This document shows positions 10,957 through 36,260 of a stretch of DNA of 64,000 nt, piece after piece. How positions within the stretch are numbered: the stretch's first letter is position 1; each line of letters begins with the position of its first letter. The translations under genes and the position numbers were made by a program. Below the pieces are notes generated by a model, which made no database searches, was not told the DNA's origin, and was given only the letters and a program-made list of their open reading frames with translations. Location of the stretch: NCBI RefSeq assembly GCF_900141815.1, contig NZ_FQYR01000003.1, forward strand, positions 992,001 through 1,056,000. The letters run 5' to 3'. Source of the stretch: Rubritalea squalenifaciens DSM 18772. GTDB lineage: Bacteria; Verrucomicrobiota; Verrucomicrobiia; Verrucomicrobiales; Akkermansiaceae.

Positions 10957-13900
10957 TCATGGGCTTACCTCCGTGGCCCTGAGTCGGATAAATTTCGTAT
11001 CCTGATCCATGGGTATCTCTACCCCTTCTTCAGTAACAACGAATCCTGATGCGTACCAGTTCACCAAATCGTTAGACCATTCCCCTTCCACATAAACCAG
11101 TTCCTCGTTTTGGCGGTCGAACTTCAGTTTGATTTTCCCATCCACAAATTCATGGATCACGGGATTATCTGGGCTATTAGGATCGGTCGCCAATGCCAGC
11201 TCTAGCAGATTAGGCAAGCCATCCAAATCCGGGTCCAACTCGGCTGAAATGTTCTGGTCAGGAACTCCTGAGTCAAAGGCATACTGCTCAACGGAGCTTA
11301 GCCCTTCACGAAACAGAAACTCCATATCCCGATCACTGAATGACAAGGGGTAGATCCGGCAATCATCTATTGCTCCCTTGAAATGACGATTGGCGATCGG
11401 GTCACATCCTAAGTGACTCACCGCACTCCAATCCGAAACAGCATGAGTCATGGCAGTGCTGGCACTTTGCATACTCGTCCCATCGTGCATGTATATCGTG
11501 GCTCCATCCGGTCTGATAACAAGAGCGACAAATACCCAAACTTGGTCGGGCATAATCAACCCAGAAGACCAAGCCTGCTGCCCATCCGATGTATTCCAGC
11601 GGTAGCGAAGGTCCATGCTAGGTCCCAATTGTAGTCCGAACAACTGACCTCCCATCCGGTGAAAGATCAATCCGACACCATTGGTTTGATCACCATCACG
11701 CTTGAACCATCCAGACAAGGTAAGCTCGTTGCCTACAGCACCTAGCGAGCCAAAAGTAAAACAACCATCTACTCCATCCAAATATCTGGCGTTCCCATGT
11801 TTTCCCGCCACCACCGACACCCCTGACAGACTGGGTTCAGCATCAAATCCATTCCCTGAACTATCGATCGCATCATCACTGGCATTCGTTTCATCCAGCA
11901 GCCACTTAGCTAGAGGCGTAGGTAGATTGCTAGCGTCTAGTATGACCAACTCCCACGAGCCTATGAAATCAAGTAAAGGGTGAGACTCCACCTGAATCTC
12001 CATCATTTCAGTATTCTCCATGAGATCCTCATCGACCGCCTGTACCAAATACGTTTGTTCTGGTTCAAATACAGGAAAGTTCAATACTTCCGGCATTCCC
12101 GAAACATCGGCTAGTTCGGCTCCCCCCAAGAACCGTAGAGGGAACTCCATGGGGACTGGTGGCTTTTCTGACAAACTTGCCGTAATAGTGGCCGTAGATC
12201 CATCCCCCTCCCGGATACTGTTATCCTGTATATCGAAAGCCAGGACAGGATAGTCATGAGCCTGGTCAAAGTTAGTCTCTGGGAAGGGCCAACCTTCGGG
12301 TACCCCCTGTCCATCAGAGAGGCCAATGATGTTATCAGCCGAATTGATATCAAGATAGGTCAGCCGAATGATACCCGTACCATCCGTGAATAACTCCAGT
12401 TGGACCGAGTTTCCTACATTGCTACCATACTCAGGAACTCCCTCGTAGGTGACCACGATCTTGGCACCTGGAAACTCCTGATAGTAGATGGCACCTGCTG
12501 AGGCCGGGTTCAGATCGTCCCAAAGAACAGCGATGCCTAAGTTGGCAAAGTGTTCGCTGATCGATTCCGTGTAATCATTGGCAGAACTGCCGAAGCGCAC
12601 CAAGCCATTCGTCCCGATATTAAGACTCGATACACTCTGACCATAGAAGGTCAGTGGCTGTGCCAGGTTGCGTGTCCAGTGACCATCATCTGAATTTCCA
12701 AAGTCTGGAGATACATTATGAAGTGCTTCTGAGCCTAACTGCGTATCCACAGGGAAGTCGGTAGCTGGGGCCTTAAAAACGGCGTAGCCTGTTGACGACG
12801 GCAGGAATGTCAGCTGGGTGTTTTTCAAATCAAAACCATCCCCTACAGCGAATTGCTCTGAGGGAGGGACCGCTTCATAGATCGTCAGCTGCACTTCACG
12901 CTGATAGACGTTTTCAAAAGACGCACTAGTGAAAGTGAGTGTGGCGGTATACGTACCAGGAGACATTTCTAATACTGATGATGTCAGCTCGGCATCGATC
13001 ACACTCTGACTGCCAGCCGTGGCCGTACCAGCTGTCTGACTCAAATTTAACCAAGATACATCAGAGGATACCGTCCAAGAGCTGTCGCTAGCCGTATTGT
13101 TCACTACCCGGAACTGATGCTCTGATGGTGATGGTAGCTGTCCATGAATGCCCCGACTCGACACCTGACTAACAGGGAATACGCCAACAGAAGCCTGGTC
13201 TTGCCCTGTAGTGATCAAGGAGAACACCTGAGAGGCTCCAGTAATGGAACCTTTATACGATACGGTTAAGACATACTCTCCTGGTTCAGGATCCGTGATA
13301 ATGATCTGCTCCACATTATCCAAAGTATTGTCTCCACTGGTCGCAGATGCTTGTGGAGCGTCTTTGTCCAGCACCCAGGGCATCAATGTCTGGCCACTTG
13401 GGCTGACCATCCGGATATCCAGATCATTCACCAAGACTGGAGTACTGGAGTCAACGACGCCATTGGCCTCATCCCCTGCGGGATCAGTCCAGCAAATCGT
13501 GGCTTTCATGACGCTGGAGTTTTGGTCCCATAACAAGCGGTAACTATGCGATGGGGTACCAGCGCTCACACTATCCACCACCAAGTGCTGGTTGGATGGC
13601 TTTTCAAAATCGAGATCGATCAGATCGACAGCCGACTTCACATTCATCAGCCCCCAACCATTAGAATAGTCGGGTCCCACGTTACCCAAGTCATCCGCAG
13701 TATGGATGATGAGAGCCTTCAGTGTACTCGCCATCATGAGTTCACCTGCATGATACTCACCATAGCGCTCCTGAATCAGAATGGATCCACCTGCAGCTGA
13801 GGGAGAGGACATCGAGGTTCCGGATTTGCTACTGTATCCATTGTCCCGGCTTGAGTCGGTTGAAAAGAGGTCTACCCCATTGGCTACAATATCTGGCTTG

Positions 13901-15318
13901 ATTCGCCCGTCATCGGTTGGCCCCCAGCTGCTGAATGAAGCCATCGTGCCTGCTTCCACTGACCGCTCGCCACTGACCACCGCATCATTCACCGCACCAA
14001 CCGTCATGATATTCTTGGCGACAGCACTTCCACCAATCGTATCGTACTGAAGGTTCTTCTCTGTATCAGGATGGTTATCGGGGTTATAGCTTGTGGATTG
14101 CCAGGATGAACCGTTCCAATAATAGATGGTAGCTCCCTCAGCAGGGCCATCATTCCGGTCATTACCAGCTGACCAGAAAGGCAGATAATAGCCACTCGCG
14201 CTGCAGATCTCATCAATAATCACCGGATCACCGATATACTTGCCAAAGTCCGAGTCCTCATCTTTCGAGAAATCCCCAAAGAAATGGTAACCGGTGTTTC
14301 CCGAATAACTCCCGTATTCCCACCCCATCAGATAACCATAAGAATGGTTAGACACGGGGAGCATGGAAAGGTCCGAGGGAGTCGCCGCAGACTCTGTAGT
14401 CATTTCCGCGAGATCATCATTCCAATCGTGGTTTCTCACCTCTACCTCTACGGCCATACCCTTCGCCTTAGAGTTTACGCCTGACGCGCCGATGGTTCCA
14501 CTGACATGAGTCTGGTGTGAAGAAAGGTAAGAACCACCACCATCCACTTGAGTGATCCGTCCTCCAAACTCCTGGTGCGATGCTCTCACGCTGGATTCAT
14601 CCCAAACACCAACTCTCAAACCTAAGCCTGTAAGATCATAGGTCGTACCCGCACCCACGAGATTCGCGGCGTTCGAGATCGCGGCGTTCTCATTATACGT
14701 GGTACGATATACTGGTAGCCCGTCTTTAAACCTCAAAAGCTCAAATCCCTTTCCATCGGAGCCTCTCCCAGCCGTTTCAATCCCTAATAGTTTGGCTTGA
14801 GCCCAAGCGTGCATTTTTTCAGCACGACTCCATGTTGCCAGTTTCTCTGCATACTCTCTCCGAGATTTTGGATCCCGAAACGCTCCGGCTCGCAGCCCAT
14901 CCATTTCCAGCCTCAGCCCATCCCGTTCATCCTCCAATTCTTGAACTATCTTACGGAAGTGATCCTCGCCTCGCTCTTTGATGATTCGCTCCCACTCTGC
15001 TTCTTTCTCCGCAGTGAGCTTATGGCCACTGAATCCACCGAGCTCTGTATCATCCTGCTTAGCTGGCCATTCTTGCTTGGGTTCGTGAAGAACGGTTTCA
15101 GCTTCAGGTAAGCTTGTTTGAATACTGACGAGCTCATGCTGTTGAATTCCCCCTTCCCTGGCACCATTGCCACTGCCACCAGCGGGTGTCCGCTCGCACT
15201 GCACAAGGCTAAGTGATATAAAAGACAAGACCGCGCATGCTAGGGGGGAAGAACAAATACGATAGCCACACACGATCCAGCTTTTCTGCCTCGCCTGGTG
15301 TTGGGGGGTGGGGGGCAT
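10957..15318 (-). CDS. Secreted subtilisin-like serine protease with LamG domain
   Basis: A 1453-residue S8-family protease. The catalytic triad is visible as Asp240 (VGVWDESSV), His271 (HQTHVSGTIG) and Ser502 (SGTSMSSPSAAG), with the oxyanion Asn386 (SAGND). The N-terminus (hydrophobic segment ending SLVQC, residues 26-41) looks like a lipoprotein or secretion signal behind a long n-region. After the catalytic domain come a beta-rich P-domain-like part (about 575-710), a BACON/NHL-like stretch, a Calx-beta-like segment (about 1080-1150), a LamG/concanavalin-like domain starting AKWLLDETNASDD (about 1175-1340), and a Ca-binding DPDLDGLPN repeat near the C-terminus. Probably exported for protein degradation. 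A PEP-CTERM or type IX sorting signal is not visible. Confidence 0.88.
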   Translation of the reverse strand: MPPTPQHQARQKSWIVCGYRICSSPLACAVLSFISLSLVQCERTPAGGSGNGAREGGIQQHELVSIQTSLPEAETVLHEPKQEWPAKQDDTELGGFSGHKLTAEKEAEWERIIKERGEDHFRKIVQELEDERDGLRLEMDGLRAGAFRDPKSRREYAEKLATWSRAEKMHAWAQAKLLGIETAGRGSDGKGFELLRFKDGLPVYRTTYNENAAISNAANLVGAGTTYDLTGLGLRVGVWDESSVRASHQEFGGRITQVDGGGSYLSSHQTHVSGTIGASGVNSKAKGMAVEVEVRNHDWNDDLAEMTTESAATPSDLSMLPVSNHSYGYLMGWEYGSYSGNTGYHFFGDFSKDEDSDFGKYIGDPVIIDEICSASGYYLPFWSAGNDRNDGPAEGATIYYWNGSSWQSTSYNPDNHPDTEKNLQYDTIGGSAVAKNIMTVGAVNDAVVSGERSVEAGTMASFSSWGPTDDGRIKPDIVANGVDLFSTDSSRDNGYSSKSGTSMSSPSAAGGSILIQERYGEYHAGELMMASTLKALIIHTADDLGNVGPDYSNGWGLMNVKSAVDLIDLDFEKPSNQHLVVDSVSAGTPSHSYRLLWDQNSSVMKATICWTDPAGDEANGVVDSSTPVLVNDLDIRMVSPSGQTLMPWVLDKDAPQASATSGDNTLDNVEQIIITDPEPGEYVLTVSYKGSITGASQVFSLITTGQDQASVGVFPVSQVSSRGIHGQLPSPSEHQFRVVNNTASDSSWTVSSDVSWLNLSQTAGTATAGSQSVIDAELTSSVLEMSPGTYTATLTFTSASFENVYQREVQLTIYEAVPPSEQFAVGDGFDLKNTQLTFLPSSTGYAVFKAPATDFPVDTQLGSEALHNVSPDFGNSDDGHWTRNLAQPLTFYGQSVSSLNIGTNGLVRFGSSANDYTESISEHFANLGIAVLWDDLNPASAGAIYYQEFPGAKIVVTYEGVPEYGSNVGNSVQLELFTDGTGIIRLTYLDINSADNIIGLSDGQGVPEGWPFPETNFDQAHDYPVLAFDIQDNSIREGDGSTATITASLSEKPPVPMEFPLRFLGGAELADVSGMPEVLNFPVFEPEQTYLVQAVDEDLMENTEMMEIQVESHPLLDFIGSWELVILDASNLPTPLAKWLLDETNASDDAIDSSGNGFDAEPSLSGVSVVAGKHGNARYLDGVDGCFTFGSLGAVGNELTLSGWFKRDGDQTNGVGLIFHRMGGQLFGLQLGPSMDLRYRWNTSDGQQAWSSGLIMPDQVWVFVALVIRPDGATIYMHDGTSMQSASTAMTHAVSDWSAVSHLGCDPIANRHFKGAIDDCRIYPLSFSDRDMEFLFREGLSSVEQYAFDSGVPDQNISAELDPDLDGLPNLLELALATDPNSPDNPVIHEFVDGKIKLKFDRQNEELVYVEGEWSNDLVNWYASGFVVTEEGVEIPMDQDTKFIRLRATEVSP

Positions 15319-15530: not shown

Positions 15531-16499
15531 TTAGGAATTTCCACCGGGCAGGAGTATAAATTCCCTCCTGTCAGCTGTGGCTGGATAGCCGACGGATCTC
15601 CAACCGTCATACATTTGCCAGCCTTGGGTAATAAGCCGCTTGCCCTGGCCCTCACGATCCGCACTCCCGAGAATAACCACAACCATTTCAACCGGAGTCA
15701 CGGTAGCCCCACCGTCTTCATGCTTCTGAACAAAGGGCTGGCGCTCGGCACAGATAGCAATGCACTGCCCCGCTGCTTGACTTGTCCCTGTTTTAATCCC
15801 TTTGATTTTCAGCTCACCTCCAAGCATTTTATTGGTATTCTCCACAGTGACCTTGCTCTCTGAAGCAGTAGCAGCTCTGGTCACACTGATCTCGCGAGAA
15901 GTCTGTTTTACATAGAAGCCAAAAGCCGTGTCCTTCATGACGTGCATGGAGAGGCGAGCAATATCAGACGCTGTAGAATAAGAATCCCTTGGATTAGCTA
16001 CAAGCCCATGCGGGGTAGCAAACTTTGTGCGGGTCATGCCCAGCGATTTAGCCAGTTTGTTCATTTCTACGACAAAAGCCCCTACCGGATCCCCTTGTAA
16101 CTGTCGTTTCATCAACAACTCACGCCCTACGTGATCGGCCAAAGTGAGGGCCGCTTTGTTATCCGATCCCATCAAGGTGGAATAGAGTGCATCGCGGAGA
16201 GTCATCTGATCACCAGGTTGCAAGCTCATCGGGTTAGCTCCCCCCACGAGATTGATGGTACTTGGCACCGTGATCATAGTGGACAGGTTTGTATTGGTAG
16301 CCTGAGCCCAGTCCAGAACCACCTTGCTTGTGGCGATCTTGGTCAGACTGGCAACAGGACGCTTCACCTCAGAGTTATCAGCCAGCAAAACCTTGCCAGA
16401 ATGGCGTTCCACCACCACATAACTCTCCTTAGCTAGTATGGGTTGTGAAAATGCGGCCACAGCCGTTACTACCCCCATAAATTTCTTTAGAAAACACAT
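15531..16499 (-). CDS. D-alanyl-D-alanine carboxypeptidase (S11 family)
   Basis: A periplasmic low-molecular-weight penicillin-binding protein of 322 residues that trims the terminal D-Ala from peptidoglycan peptides. It has a signal peptide (ending ILAKES). All three penicillin-recognition motifs are present: S51-L-T-K54, S112-D-N114 and K236-T-G238. The PHGL motif typical of S11 enzymes is at about 163. It is shorter than DacA/PBP5 because the C-terminal beta domain and amphipathic anchor are missing, as in PbpG/PBP7-like enzymes. Monocistronic with its own terminator. Confidence 0.92.
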   Translation of the reverse strand: MCFLKKFMGVVTAVAAFSQPILAKESYVVVERHSGKVLLADNSEVKRPVASLTKIATSKVVLDWAQATNTNLSTMITVPSTINLVGGANPMSLQPGDQMTLRDALYSTLMGSDNKAALTLADHVGRELLMKRQLQGDPVGAFVVEMNKLAKSLGMTRTKFATPHGLVANPRDSYSTASDIARLSMHVMKDTAFGFYVKQTSREISVTRAATASESKVTVENTNKMLGGELKIKGIKTGTSQAAGQCIAICAERQPFVQKHEDGGATVTPVEMVVVILGSADREGQGKRLITQGWQMYDGWRSVGYPATADRREFILLPGGNS

Positions 16500-16582
16500 A
16501 AAATTGAATCAGACCCTTGGTTGCCAAGAGAATAGCTCGCCTTAGGGAGCAATCAACCAAGAATCTGGCTCTGGTTACAGAA

Positions 16583-16588
16583 TTGACA
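16583..16588 (+). promoter_or_regulatory. Consensus -35 hexamer ahead of the structured RNA
   Basis: A perfect TTGACA about 64 bases before the first paired base of the candidate RNA at 16647. No good -10 lies at 16-18 bases. The nearest candidate, CACAAT at 16610, is 21 bases away, so the promoter call is tentative. Confidence 0.25.
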
Positions 16589-16646
16589 TCTTTTCGAGCC
16601 TCAATTTGTCACAATCCACTTGCCTTTTAACGAACACCGCACCAAG

Positions 16647-16841
16647 TTGGCGCAGCTCGACGCCTTGGAAGAGCTGCTCCCAGGAGCACGACAAGGCACT
16701 TACCGGATGCTGCGCGAGGCGGGTTCGGAACGACATATCCCACGAGCAAGTCCCACACTTCCGTTGAAAAATTGCATGCATGCCAGCAACGGGTGGGAAT
16801 CGGACCCTTACCATCCGGTGAGCCACAAGACCCCGCGCCGA
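16647..16841 (+). ncRNA. Candidate structured RNA or structured leader upstream of the RRM gene
   Basis: Between the DD-carboxypeptidase gene and the RRM gene lies a 352-base stretch without a convincing gene. It contains a nested set of long-range helices: closing stem 16647-16653/16835-16841 (7 bp), side hairpin 16662-16667/16692-16697 capped by 16675-16679/16684-16688, then 16699-16709/16812-16822 (11 bp), 16721-16728/16800-16807 (8 bp), 16751-16756/16793-16798 and 16761-16766/16787-16792. All imperfect pairs in the three outer stems are G-U on the plus strand and would be A-C on the minus strand, so the RNA reads rightward. It ends about 10 bases before the ATG at 16852. It could be an independent RNA of about 195 nt, the size of 6S RNA, or an autoregulatory leader. 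No tmRNA, RNase P or SRP core motif was found. Confidence 0.55.
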
Positions 16842-16851
16842 AACGAAATAC

Positions 16852-17469
16852 ATGACTACCATGTCAGACACACCAAACAGACAACAGAACCGCGGAGGTG
16901 GCAATCGCCGCCCACGCCGTAACAACAACCGTAACCGTAATCGTAACAACAGAAACCGCCCACAGCAGCCACCCAAGCCTCTCAAGCTTACCCTGTGGCA
17001 GAAAATCCTTAAAGCTATCGGCCTCTTCGACGAAGAAAAAGCTCGTAAGCAGCAGCAACAAACTCAGAAGAATACCAATAAAGGTACCAAGAGCGCTGCA
17101 CCAAAGTCCAATACCCGCAACGCCAAGTCCTCAACAGGCGGTAAGCGCAAACCACAGAGAGTCCCGGTTGAATCCGCTCGCCTCTACGTAGGCAACCTCT
17201 CTTATGACGCTACTGAATATGACATCGAGGACCTATTCAAAGGCATTGGCACTGTTAAGAAAGTAGAAATCATCTACAACCGTAATACCCACAAATCCAA
17301 AGGCTACGGCTTCGTTCAGATGCTCAACACTGAGGAAGCAAAGCGCGCTGTGGACGTATTACACGACCAGCCGTTCATGGGCCGCCAGCTCGTAGTTAAC
17401 GGCTCCAAGTCCCGTAAGGACAGTGACCCAGCTAAAGAAGCAGACAACTCTGAAGTTTCCGCCTCCTAA
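16852..17469 (+). CDS. RRM-domain RNA-binding protein with Arg/Asn-rich N-terminus
   Basis: A 205-residue cytosolic RNA-binding protein. Residues about 102-185 form one RRM, with RNP2 as LYVGNL and RNP1 as KGYGFVQM. Before it lies a low-complexity basic tail (RGGGNRRPRRNNNRNRNRN, about residues 14-40), a short segment LTLWQKILKAIGLFDEE, and a Lys/Gln/Thr-rich linker. The ATG at 16852 or the ATG at 16861 could be the start. Bacterial single-RRM proteins are known in cyanobacteria and several other phyla and are often linked to cold response or RNA localisation. The structured RNA directly upstream suggests autoregulation, which is inference. A terminator follows. Confidence 0.9.
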   Translation: MTTMSDTPNRQQNRGGGNRRPRRNNNRNRNRNNRNRPQQPPKPLKLTLWQKILKAIGLFDEEKARKQQQQTQKNTNKGTKSAAPKSNTRNAKSSTGGKRKPQRVPVESARLYVGNLSYDATEYDIEDLFKGIGTVKKVEIIYNRNTHKSKGYGFVQMLNTEEAKRAVDVLHDQPFMGRQLVVNGSKSRKDSDPAKEADNSEVSAS

Positions 17470-17491
17470 GCTCTCCACAAACAACTTATCG

Positions 17492-17530
17492 AACCCCGGC
17501 CCTCATACTGAGAGCCGGGGTTTTCTTTTT
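17492..17530 (+). terminator. Terminator after the RRM gene
   Basis: A 9-bp GC-rich stem (17492-17500 with 17514-17522) followed by TTTTCTTTTT. It lies 52 bases before the start chosen for miaA, so miaA should have its own promoter or depend on read-through. Confidence 0.9.
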
Positions 17531-17581
17531 ACGGCAAGAGGGGCTTGCTTCTCGCCTTTTCAAACACAAGACTATTCAGCG

Positions 17582-18493
17582 ATGCCCGTTTACGTCTGCG
17601 GTCCAACAGCCTCTGGCAAATCAGCCCTCGCCATCGAACTCGCCAAACAACTCCATGGCGAGGTCGTCAATGGTGATGCCTACCAAGTCTACCAAGGTCT
17701 GGAAACACTTACCGCAGCACCCTCTGCTGAAGAGCTCAGCGAGGTTCCCCATCACCTCTTCTCCGTACTCTCACCAAGCGAGAACTTCGATGCCATGCGC
17801 TATCTGGAGTTGGCCAAACCAGTCATCGAAGAAATCGAATCAAGAGGCAAAACCGCCGTCATCGTTGGAGGCTCGGGCATGTACCTCAAGTTCCTTACTC
17901 ACGGTCCCTCCCCGGTTCCTGCGGGTGATGACTCTCTGCGAGCCGCACTAGAGCAGCGCAGTCAGGAGTCCCTGGTAGAGGAATTTCAGAAACTCGATCC
18001 TGAGGGAGCCGCCATCACCAACCTCAAGAACCCCCGCTACGTCATACGAGCCTTGGAGATCTGCCTGCTCTCAGGACGCCCCATGTCTTCTATCAAGAAT
18101 GAATGGGCTGAGAAATGTGCAGAGAAAGAAAAAGACCTCAAAGGCATCGTTCTCCAGTGGGAGCCCGAAGCTCTGCGCCGGCGCATCGCCAAGCGTACCA
18201 AGCTCATGCTCGAGAACGGGGCGATCGAAGAAGTGCGTAGTCATCCCGAGCTATCTGCCACCTGTGAGAAAGCCATCGGCGTCCCCCAGATCCGTTCCTA
18301 CCTCAATGGTGAGATCGATCTCACCACCTGCGAAGAAAAGATCTTCTTTGCCACCTGTCAGTACGCCAAACGCCAACGCACCTGGTTCAAGAAAGAGCAA
18401 TGGCTTAGCCCCCGCCCCATGGATGCGAAGCGAGATATAAAGTCGCTTGTTAGTTCTCAATGTTCAGATTGGGATCTTAATAATCCCATTTGA
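17582..18493 (+). CDS. miaA: tRNA dimethylallyltransferase
   Basis: Transfers a dimethylallyl group to N6 of A37 in tRNAs reading UNN codons. It has 303 residues from the ATG at 17582. The frame is open further upstream, but that part crosses the terminator of the RRM gene. The P-loop GPTASGKS is at residues 7-14, followed by the family motif for substrate contact (NGDAYQVYQGL, usually D-S-x-Q-x-Y-x-G-L/M, here DAYQVY), GGSGMYL, and LKNPRYVIRALE. The usual DS is replaced by DA. The C-terminal KRQRTWFKKEQW motif is intact. The alanine racemase gene follows closely. Confidence 0.93.
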   Translation: MPVYVCGPTASGKSALAIELAKQLHGEVVNGDAYQVYQGLETLTAAPSAEELSEVPHHLFSVLSPSENFDAMRYLELAKPVIEEIESRGKTAVIVGGSGMYLKFLTHGPSPVPAGDDSLRAALEQRSQESLVEEFQKLDPEGAAITNLKNPRYVIRALEICLLSGRPMSSIKNEWAEKCAEKEKDLKGIVLQWEPEALRRRIAKRTKLMLENGAIEEVRSHPELSATCEKAIGVPQIRSYLNGEIDLTTCEEKIFFATCQYAKRQRTWFKKEQWLSPRPMDAKRDIKSLVSSQCSDWDLNNPI

Positions 18494-31981: not shown

Positions 31982-32058
<77 letters not shown>

Positions 32059-32108: not shown

Positions 32109-32185
<77 letters not shown>

Positions 32186-35189: not shown

Positions 35190-36260
35190 TCAGAGGCCAA
35201 TCCACTGCAAGGACTCCTCAAGAGGTCCTGCTGCCGGAGGAGCGTGCCCCATATCAGGCACATCCAAAAAACGGTAATTCAGGCGGTTACTCTCCCAGTC
35301 CTTACTCGTTTCAAGGATCTTATTGTAATTGTAGTCTTTCTTGCCTGACACCACGATCCATTTCATGTCCTTACGCTCACCACGCTTGAAGTCCTTGATT
35401 TCAAAGCCTGGGAAGTGAGATGGCAGATAACTCTGTGCCGCGCTGCTAATTGCCCCTTTGAAAAGCTCAGGATAGAGAGCCGCTGTGGTAAATGCCATGT
35501 GACCACCACCTGATGTGCCAGAGACATAGCGTCTTTTAGGATCAATTTTATACTGCTTCTCCACGGTCGCCATCGCATCCAAAGACAAGGTCACTCGATA
35601 GGGATGAGGATTGATCTTCTTACGATCCTTGTCCGCATAGTTCCCTACTCCGTAGGCACTGACTGCAATAAGTTTGTACTTGCTCAAAATAGGCTCCCAG
35701 TCTTTTCGAATGAGGGCATTCGGCATGGGATTGATGAACAGAAGCAGCCCATAGGCCTCAGTCCCGTCGTAGCTTTCAGGACAATAGATGAGGCATTGGT
35801 CTTTTGCCGGATCGCGTCTCAGCCAGTCATCTTCCTTTCCCGTGGAGTCGAAAGCGCCCCCTTCATGCTCCTTGAGCCAGGTCCTGCGTGTACTTTCTTT
35901 AAAATAGTCACCAGTATCTTCAAAGAGTCTGTGACTAATAGATACACGGTCTCGCCTACCTAACAAACTAGCCACCTCCTCTTGTCGCTTCTTCTTGTCT
36001 TCCTCCAGCTTGGCCTCTTGCTCCTTCAGCCAATCACGGTCTCCCTGAGAAAGCTTCTCCAGAGGATATTGAATCTCTTTCCCCTTCAGCTTCAGGGTCA
36101 CACTGTCACCAGAGTGAGAAATGTAGTCAGCCTCGATAGTTTTCCCCTCGCTATTCGTCCAGGTACGACCCTCCACCCCGGATGTCGAAAAGGCAAGACA
36201 ACCAAGCGACAATGCGAACGCGCTGGATAGACCAAATTTTGTCAAAATGCGTTGATACAT
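35190..36260 (-). CDS. Secreted alpha/beta hydrolase with SHD1-like N-terminal domain
   Basis: About 356 residues from the ATG at 36260, which gives a signal peptide (MYQRILTKFGLSSAFALSLGCLAFS). Residues about 33-80 (RTWTNSEGKTIEADYISHSGDSVTL) form an SHD1-like domain, common at the N-terminus of secreted proteins of Planctomycetes and Verrucomicrobia. A charged helix follows, then an alpha/beta hydrolase similar to PHB depolymerases and feruloyl esterases, with nucleophile Ser in GTSGGGHMA and a C-terminal His in DMGHAPP. The substrate is unknown. Converges on the recombinase gene. Confidence 0.85.
   Translation of the reverse strand: MYQRILTKFGLSSAFALSLGCLAFSTSGVEGRTWTNSEGKTIEADYISHSGDSVTLKLKGKEIQYPLEKLSQGDRDWLKEQEAKLEEDKKKRQEEVASLLGRRDRVSISHRLFEDTGDYFKESTRRTWLKEHEGGAFDSTGKEDDWLRRDPAKDQCLIYCPESYDGTEAYGLLLFINPMPNALIRKDWEPILSKYKLIAVSAYGVGNYADKDRKKINPHPYRVTLSLDAMATVEKQYKIDPKRRYVSGTSGGGHMAFTTAALYPELFKGAISSAAQSYLPSHFPGFEIKDFKRGERKDMKWIVVSGKKDYNYNKILETSKDWESNRLNYRFLDVPDMGHAPPAAGPLEESLQWIGL

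Follow-up and report, generated by a model that had tools for sequence, protein, structure and literature searches.

A predicted structured leader upstream of an RRM protein gene of Rubritalea squalenifaciens, conserved in fold and probably autoregulatory

The window, a stretch of 64,000 nucleotides of Rubritalea squalenifaciens (G000:C3:992001-1056000), carries a structured element immediately upstream of rrm, the gene of an RRM protein. This element is best explained as a leader of about 195-240 nt at the 5' end of the rrm mRNA, acting in cis and most likely serving negative feedback by the RRM protein itself, a reading to which the comparative analysis lends a probability of roughly 0.55. 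On the plus strand, the predicted fold begins with a hairpin (P1); downstream of it, helix X spans a long distance and is crossed by helix S2, with a stack of three helices (Y, Z and T) in between. Related rrm genes are predicted to carry the same or an analogous fold, closed by a long-range helix that ends 18-30 nt ahead of the AUG. A conserved structure with compensatory changes and a location in cis to rrm, both expected of an autoregulatory leader, were found.

RRM proteins are widespread in bacteria: all 58 genomes searched here, the own genome included, contain an RRM match, and a close rrm orthologue is present in 11 of the 12 genomes of the genus Rubritalea. To our knowledge, little is known about the control of bacterial RRM protein genes. 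A leader kept in its fold and not in its letters, present once per genome and located at rrm in all strong matches, makes autoregulation directly testable.

The rrm gene (16861-17469, plus strand) encodes one RRM (Pfam RRM_1), C-terminal to an Arg/Asn-rich N-terminal part. In Rubritalea marina, the nearest named relative, the RRM protein is 76-77% identical. Two in-frame ATG codons are available, and the one at 16861 is probably the start. In all 11 Rubritalea orthologues, the start reads ATGTC, followed by one variable base and GA, which in the window is found at 16861; since this position aligns with the start in the relatives, the upstream ATG at 16852 is probably not used. The element is flanked by rrm and by a divergent D-alanyl-D-alanine carboxypeptidase gene (15531-16499, minus strand), and the gene of an IPP-transferase (miaA) comes after rrm.

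No sigma-70-type promoter was found in 16450-16860, the single listed site falling within the rrm gene. A CTTGCCTTTT box, which is possibly part of the promoter, marks the 5' edge of the leader (16619-16628, plus strand) and is exact in six of the 11 Rubritalea rrm leaders; these leaders were trimmed at a CTTGC, hence this 5-mer is present by construction. The window contains two copies of the box (the other at 36188-36197, minus strand), against 0.16 expected. A wider role was considered and abandoned, as the 14 copies in the genome, compared to nine for the reversed pattern, are uninformative. A scan of the plus strand of 16450-17600 found no terminator-like site, thus none between the element and rrm. 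After the gene, CCCCGGC...GCCGGGG at 17494-17520, followed by a T-rich stretch, resembles a terminator by eye; its loop exceeds the limit of the scan.

In the window, the P1 hairpin (16662-16697) is formed by GCCTTG (16662-16667) and CAAGGC (16692-16697), with an inner stem within. The 11-bp helix X joins CTTACCGGATG (16699-16709, conserved core 16702-16709) over a long distance to CATCCGGTGAG (16812-16822), of which CATCCGGT at 16812-16819 is the core. The 5' arm of S2, GCGCGAGG (16712-16719), pairs with CCCCGCGC (16831-16838) with one A-C mismatch. The inner stack is composed of Y (GGGTTC, 16721-16726, with GGACCC, 16802-16807), Z (TCCCAC, 16751-16756, with GTGGGA, 16793-16798) and T (CCGTTG, 16761-16766, with CAACGG, 16787-16792); all these arms are read on the plus strand. 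S2 ends 22 nt before the ATG, and in the spacer (16839-16860, plus strand), no Shine-Dalgarno sequence was seen by eye.

The initial annotation, made from the sequence of the window, had described a nested long-range structure, with a 7-bp closing stem, an 11-bp helix and two TCCCAC copies (16738 and 16751) as alternative partners of GTGGGA at 16793. All of these are present, being the parts that its text allows to be located, which its 8-bp helix is not. The direction proposed from wobble pairs is borne out: one U-G pair occurs in each of the closing stem, the 11-bp helix and GGGTTC/GGACCC, and it is a wobble only if the plus strand is the RNA. The observation as such is confirmed, with corrections. 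The 11-bp helix and the inner stems are conserved, but the closing stem is not, and the crossing helix S2 had been missed. The 7-bp stem (TTGGCGC/GCGCCGA, 16647-16653 with 16835-16841, plus strand) is present here; its longest counterpart in the two nearest relatives measures 5 bp in R. marina and 4 bp in another Rubritalea leader, L005. It shares positions 16835-16838 with S2, so that the two pairings would compete. The switch between the TCCCAC copies is not supported by these relatives, in which the copy at 16751 alone has a counterpart, as TTTCAC. With the start at 16861, the distance to the ATG, given as about 10 bases, becomes 19 nt from the 7-bp stem or 22 nt from S2.

Folding of the single sequence is weak, both for the element (z -1.70; 17 of 200 shuffles fold equally well) and for the longer leader (z -0.86; 42 of 200). 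The helices exceed chance because comparative evidence, and not the folding energy, supports them. A DNA search of the 58 genomes (own included) with the window leader gave matches in the own genome alone; hence, structure models were needed to find relatives.

Model R2, a covariance model built from the single leader L005 (genome G005, genus Rubritalea) with its folded structure, matches the window element with 55.6 bits (E 1.9e-13; 100 sources, 465 kb) and R. marina with 44.4 bits (E 2.7e-10), in both cases directly upstream of rrm; the next best match has an E of 4.6. A sequence-only nhmmer search with L005 as the query reached 21.4 bits for the window and 32.3 bits for R. marina. In the alignment of these three leaders (A8), referred to here as form A, 19 of 46 pairs show changes on both sides (shuffle mean 7.4; reached by none of 500 shuffles), and pairing is kept in 121 of 125 cells (96.8%), compared to 39-44% when the partner is slid by one column. 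A8 (three rows) and A9, the six-row alignment of the other Rubritalea leaders, were fitted to the model structure, and their counts lean towards that structure; A10 and A11 are alignments not fitted to structure.

The changes are distributed over several helices. For P1, both sides are changed in seven of 11 model pairs among the three leaders. The X helix reads ACCGGATG/CATCCGGT in the window, GCCGAATG/CATTCGGC in L005 and AATGAA/TTCATT in R. marina. Similarly, Z reads TCCCAC/GTGGGA in the window, and TTTCAC/GTGGAA and TTTCAC/GTGAAA in L005 and R. marina, respectively. A 4-bp inner pair of the T loop in A8 is a palindrome in the window and would leave a loop of 2 nt; it should not count as support.

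Helix S2 is absent from the model, and it occupies the same alignment columns in all three form-A leaders: GCGCTGAGC/GCTCGGCGC in L005, GCAGAGC/GCTCTGC in R. marina, and the mismatched arms given above in the window. S2 and X cross, with 2-3 nt separating their 5' arms, in the order seen in an H-type pseudoknot. In total, 24 of 27 cells pair, versus 22-48% in slid versions, and three of nine pairs are changed on both sides. Known from three sequences, S2 has a covariation score that was reached by 10 of 500 shuffles, and it is unremarkable by two of its five measures (compensated-pair number, 22 of 500; pair-type number, 85 of 500). In a duplex test of the closing helix on single sequences, five of the 11 Rubritalea leaders fall below 0.05 (L004, 76 of 2000 shuffles; L005, 56; L008, 65; L009, 12; L010, 4); the other six do not, the window among them with 590 of 2000.

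Other Rubritalea leaders adopt a second layout (form B). In four of them (L006, L008, L009 and L010; aligned by MAFFT), a 9-bp closing helix is paired in every row, with compensated changes. Model R1, built from these four, finds two further leaders, L004 (42.2 bits) and L007 (36.4 bits); its other matches are weak (L066, 16.5 bits, E 0.032, outside the leader; L005, 10.4 bits, E 1.4). Across the 58 genomes, the strong R1 matches are the six form-B leaders only, all at rrm, and one further place scores 18.4 bits (E 0.09) without rrm. When the six are fitted to the R1 structure (A9), 12 of 24 pairs have both-side changes, compared to a shuffle mean of 3.4. A crossing helix can be drawn in form B as well, yet it is significant in none of the six leaders by the duplex test (best, 214 of 2000 shuffles); a form-B pseudoknot is suggestive only.

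R1 does not detect the window, and R3, built from A8, reaches at most 6.9 bits within form-B leaders. Two of the 11 Rubritalea leaders (L013 and L020) match none of R1, R2 and R3. Taking forms A and B together, the nine strong Rubritalea model matches are all located at rrm, one per genome. As strong matches in relatives precede rrm and the plus strand of the region lacks a terminator-like site in the scan, the option of a leader, one of two offered initially, is supported. We infer that the leader and rrm share one transcript and that the leader influences rrm expression in cis.

Beyond Rubritalea, 77 usable leaders from 80 named rrm loci (L041, L086 and L110 were left out, having no usable start) were compared by blastn together with the 11 Rubritalea leaders. 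The larger clusters outside Rubritalea are C1 (26 leaders, Luteolibacter-like), C2 (12, of which 10 are labelled Roseibacillus), C3 (12) and C4 (4). The C1 structure comprises 49 pairs, with a two-part closing helix of 13 bp and six inner helices, and 90.4% of the cells pair. Among its 25 distinct rows, 66 compensated cells were counted (shuffle mean 20.3; 0 of 500), and 18 pairs have both-side changes (shuffle mean 10.5; 1 of 500); in its number of pair types, the structure is not exceptional (52 of 500 shuffles). These counts refer to a MAFFT alignment made without structure and to a structure drawn by eye on one row; the rows are akin, and the shuffles ignore kinship. RNAalifold independently chose a nearly identical closing helix (12 of 13 pairs).

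With a C1 leader as the DNA query, 20 places were found in 19 of the 145 genomes of the family. Seventeen of them precede rrm, among which are all 14 long ones; at least five of the long ones are apparently loci already in C1 (L056, L062, L071, L083 and L099), so that the long matches are evidence of position and not of new conservation. The three remaining matches are short (31-41 nt) and have no rrm in the fetched stretch, one being ~200 nt from a contig end. C2 is predicted to have a closing helix of 10 bp and an inner helix of 8 bp; five of 24 predicted pairs are compensated, and the covariation term is small (-0.77). The consensus folds of C3 and C4 are weak (-10.7 and -7.5). C3 groups 12 mutually similar rrm leaders (L045, L051, L067, L072, L077, L079, L090, L092, L098, L101, L103 and L108), in which a 5' hairpin can be seen by eye.

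A hairpin with an A-rich loop, ACCAAAAA, is visible in C1 (L096 and 25 related loci) and is identical in 15 of the 26 rows. This loop is a possible protein site of the C1 leaders; among the forms as a whole, no shared single-stranded motif was seen as such a candidate.

The distance between the closing helix (S2 in form A) and the AUG varies little: it is 22-30 nt in nine Rubritalea leaders, 18-26 nt in 26 C1 leaders and 24 nt in 12 C2 leaders (47 leaders measured). In C1 and C2, the AUG played no part in the choice of the closing helices by RNAalifold. Between the two Rubritalea forms, model matches do not rise above noise level, so that their common origin, and likewise that of C1 and C2 with them, is suggested by position, spacing and overall layout. 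The leaders offer an example of an RNA whose layout differs among genera at a nearly fixed distance from the start codon. A more far-reaching proposal is tentative and would go beyond the main reading: a fast-remodelling family of pseudoknotted autoregulatory leaders may follow one RRM gene through the family of Rubritalea, Roseibacillus and Luteolibacter, each genus having remade the inner part of the fold and even the partner in the pseudoknot, with the closing helix still 18-30 nt from the AUG. In the window, 16835-16838 would then pair either in S2 or in the outer stem, and the RRM protein would set this switch between two states.

Under negative feedback, excess RRM protein would bind its own leader and fix the pseudoknotted fold beside the ribosome landing zone. 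The fixed fold would lead to less initiation or leave the mRNA exposed to decay, with feedback at translation or mRNA stability. If the protein were drawn off onto other RNA, or the fold altered by temperature, rrm would be expressed. The leader is probably autoregulatory in this sense, a response to the RRM protein being suggested because of the analogy with the Chlorobi-RRM RNA, the RbpB mRNA site and the rbpA1 5' UTR.

The Chlorobi-RRM RNA family, named for RRM genes, is defined by its position in the leader at the 5' end of such a gene. Autoregulation was reportedly proposed for it by Weinberg et al. in 2010. The element has the same position; the kind of RNA is known, and the element belongs to another family. 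The motif (RF01697; Weinberg et al. 2010) is listed for Chlorobi as a candidate structured RNA, probably cis-regulatory (PMC2864571). Its model covers 73 positions versus ~195 for the element, and no match to the element was obtained at E up to 5, the best in the genome (15.9 bits, cut-off 45) being elsewhere; the distinction refers to model match and length.

The 5' UTR of cyanobacterial rbpA1 is said to take part in the control of expression (Sato and Nakamura 1998; Ehira 2005). Like the element, it is the leader of a gene of an RRM-type RNA-binding protein; unlike the element, it belongs to an unrelated phylum and to cold control. RbpB, an RNA-binding protein of Bacteroides thetaiotaomicron, has a binding site on its own mRNA (PMC11697453); the passage on this site describes no conserved folded leader, which sets it apart from the element. 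A literature search gave no report of such a leader for Verrucomicrobiota among the matches listed.

The main alternative, although an unlikely one, is a cis-acting leader which senses temperature or another physical state, as is said of the rbpA1 5' UTR, and not the RRM protein. For cyanobacteria, rbp1 is described as a known gene of the cold-shock response in a paper that cites work on the rbpA1 5' UTR (PMC6091082), and the difference in structure among clades would be tolerable for a thermosensor. However, a simple thermosensor is expected to mask the AUG, whereas the AUG region here stays outside the closing helix, at a spacing of 18-30 nt. Furthermore, rrm is not obviously a substitute for cold-shock-domain proteins, and its role as their replacement was rejected, these proteins being present in 10 of the 12 Rubritalea genomes.

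Less probable again is a purely structural element that works without feedback and serves to stabilise a well-expressed mRNA or to enhance its translation. It would account for the nearly constant spacing and for the lack, by eye, of a Shine-Dalgarno sequence, which would fit a ribosome standby site or a 5' stability element; on the other hand, ~200 nt with several long-range helices presumably exceed the needs of a stability hairpin.

The other option raised initially, a stand-alone small RNA (6S-like or other) lying upstream of rrm by chance, is improbable, and 6S RNA itself is rejected. Its compact fold of ~195 nt is comparable to 6S RNA (RF00013), which has a similar length (model of 187 positions) and a long, mostly nested fold. 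The genome, however, possesses its own 6S match on another contig (G000:C4:65335-65517; 46.6 bits, just above the cut-off of 46.4), whereas the element precedes rrm and has no 6S match, neither at the gathering score nor at E up to 5 on 16450-17000. The lack of a terminator-like site in the scan between element and gene, and the location of all nine strong model matches at rrm, once per genome, also argue against it. In R. marina, a 6S match (G010:C10:11555-11733) scores 45.3 bits, just under the cut-off, and lies ~5 kb from rrm.

A metabolite riboswitch, to which the multi-helix leader with crossing helices could point, is very improbable, as sequence and layout differ between genera, unlike the usual conserved core of a ligand pocket, and as Rfam models at their thresholds detect nothing in the leader of the window or, apart from tRNAs, in 20 loci of other genera (gathering score). 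The scan with Rfam models, including 6S, suggested by the initial annotation assigned no family to the element at threshold. At E up to 5, the sole match in the element region was SECIS_2 on the minus strand, at chance level (15.9 bits versus 70), and at E up to 2, nine Rubritalea loci gave one sub-threshold match, outside the leader. The leaders are candidate RNA families of Verrucomicrobiota, with no Rfam 15 match in the loci scanned.

In the window as a whole, the only Rfam 15 matches at the gathering score are two tRNAs, outside the element. They are tandem tRNA-Arg (acg) genes (31982-32058 and 32109-32185) with equal scores for the Rfam tRNA model. A very large ORF of 1453 aa (10957-15318, minus strand) resembles, by eye, a secreted subtilase with extra C-terminal domains.
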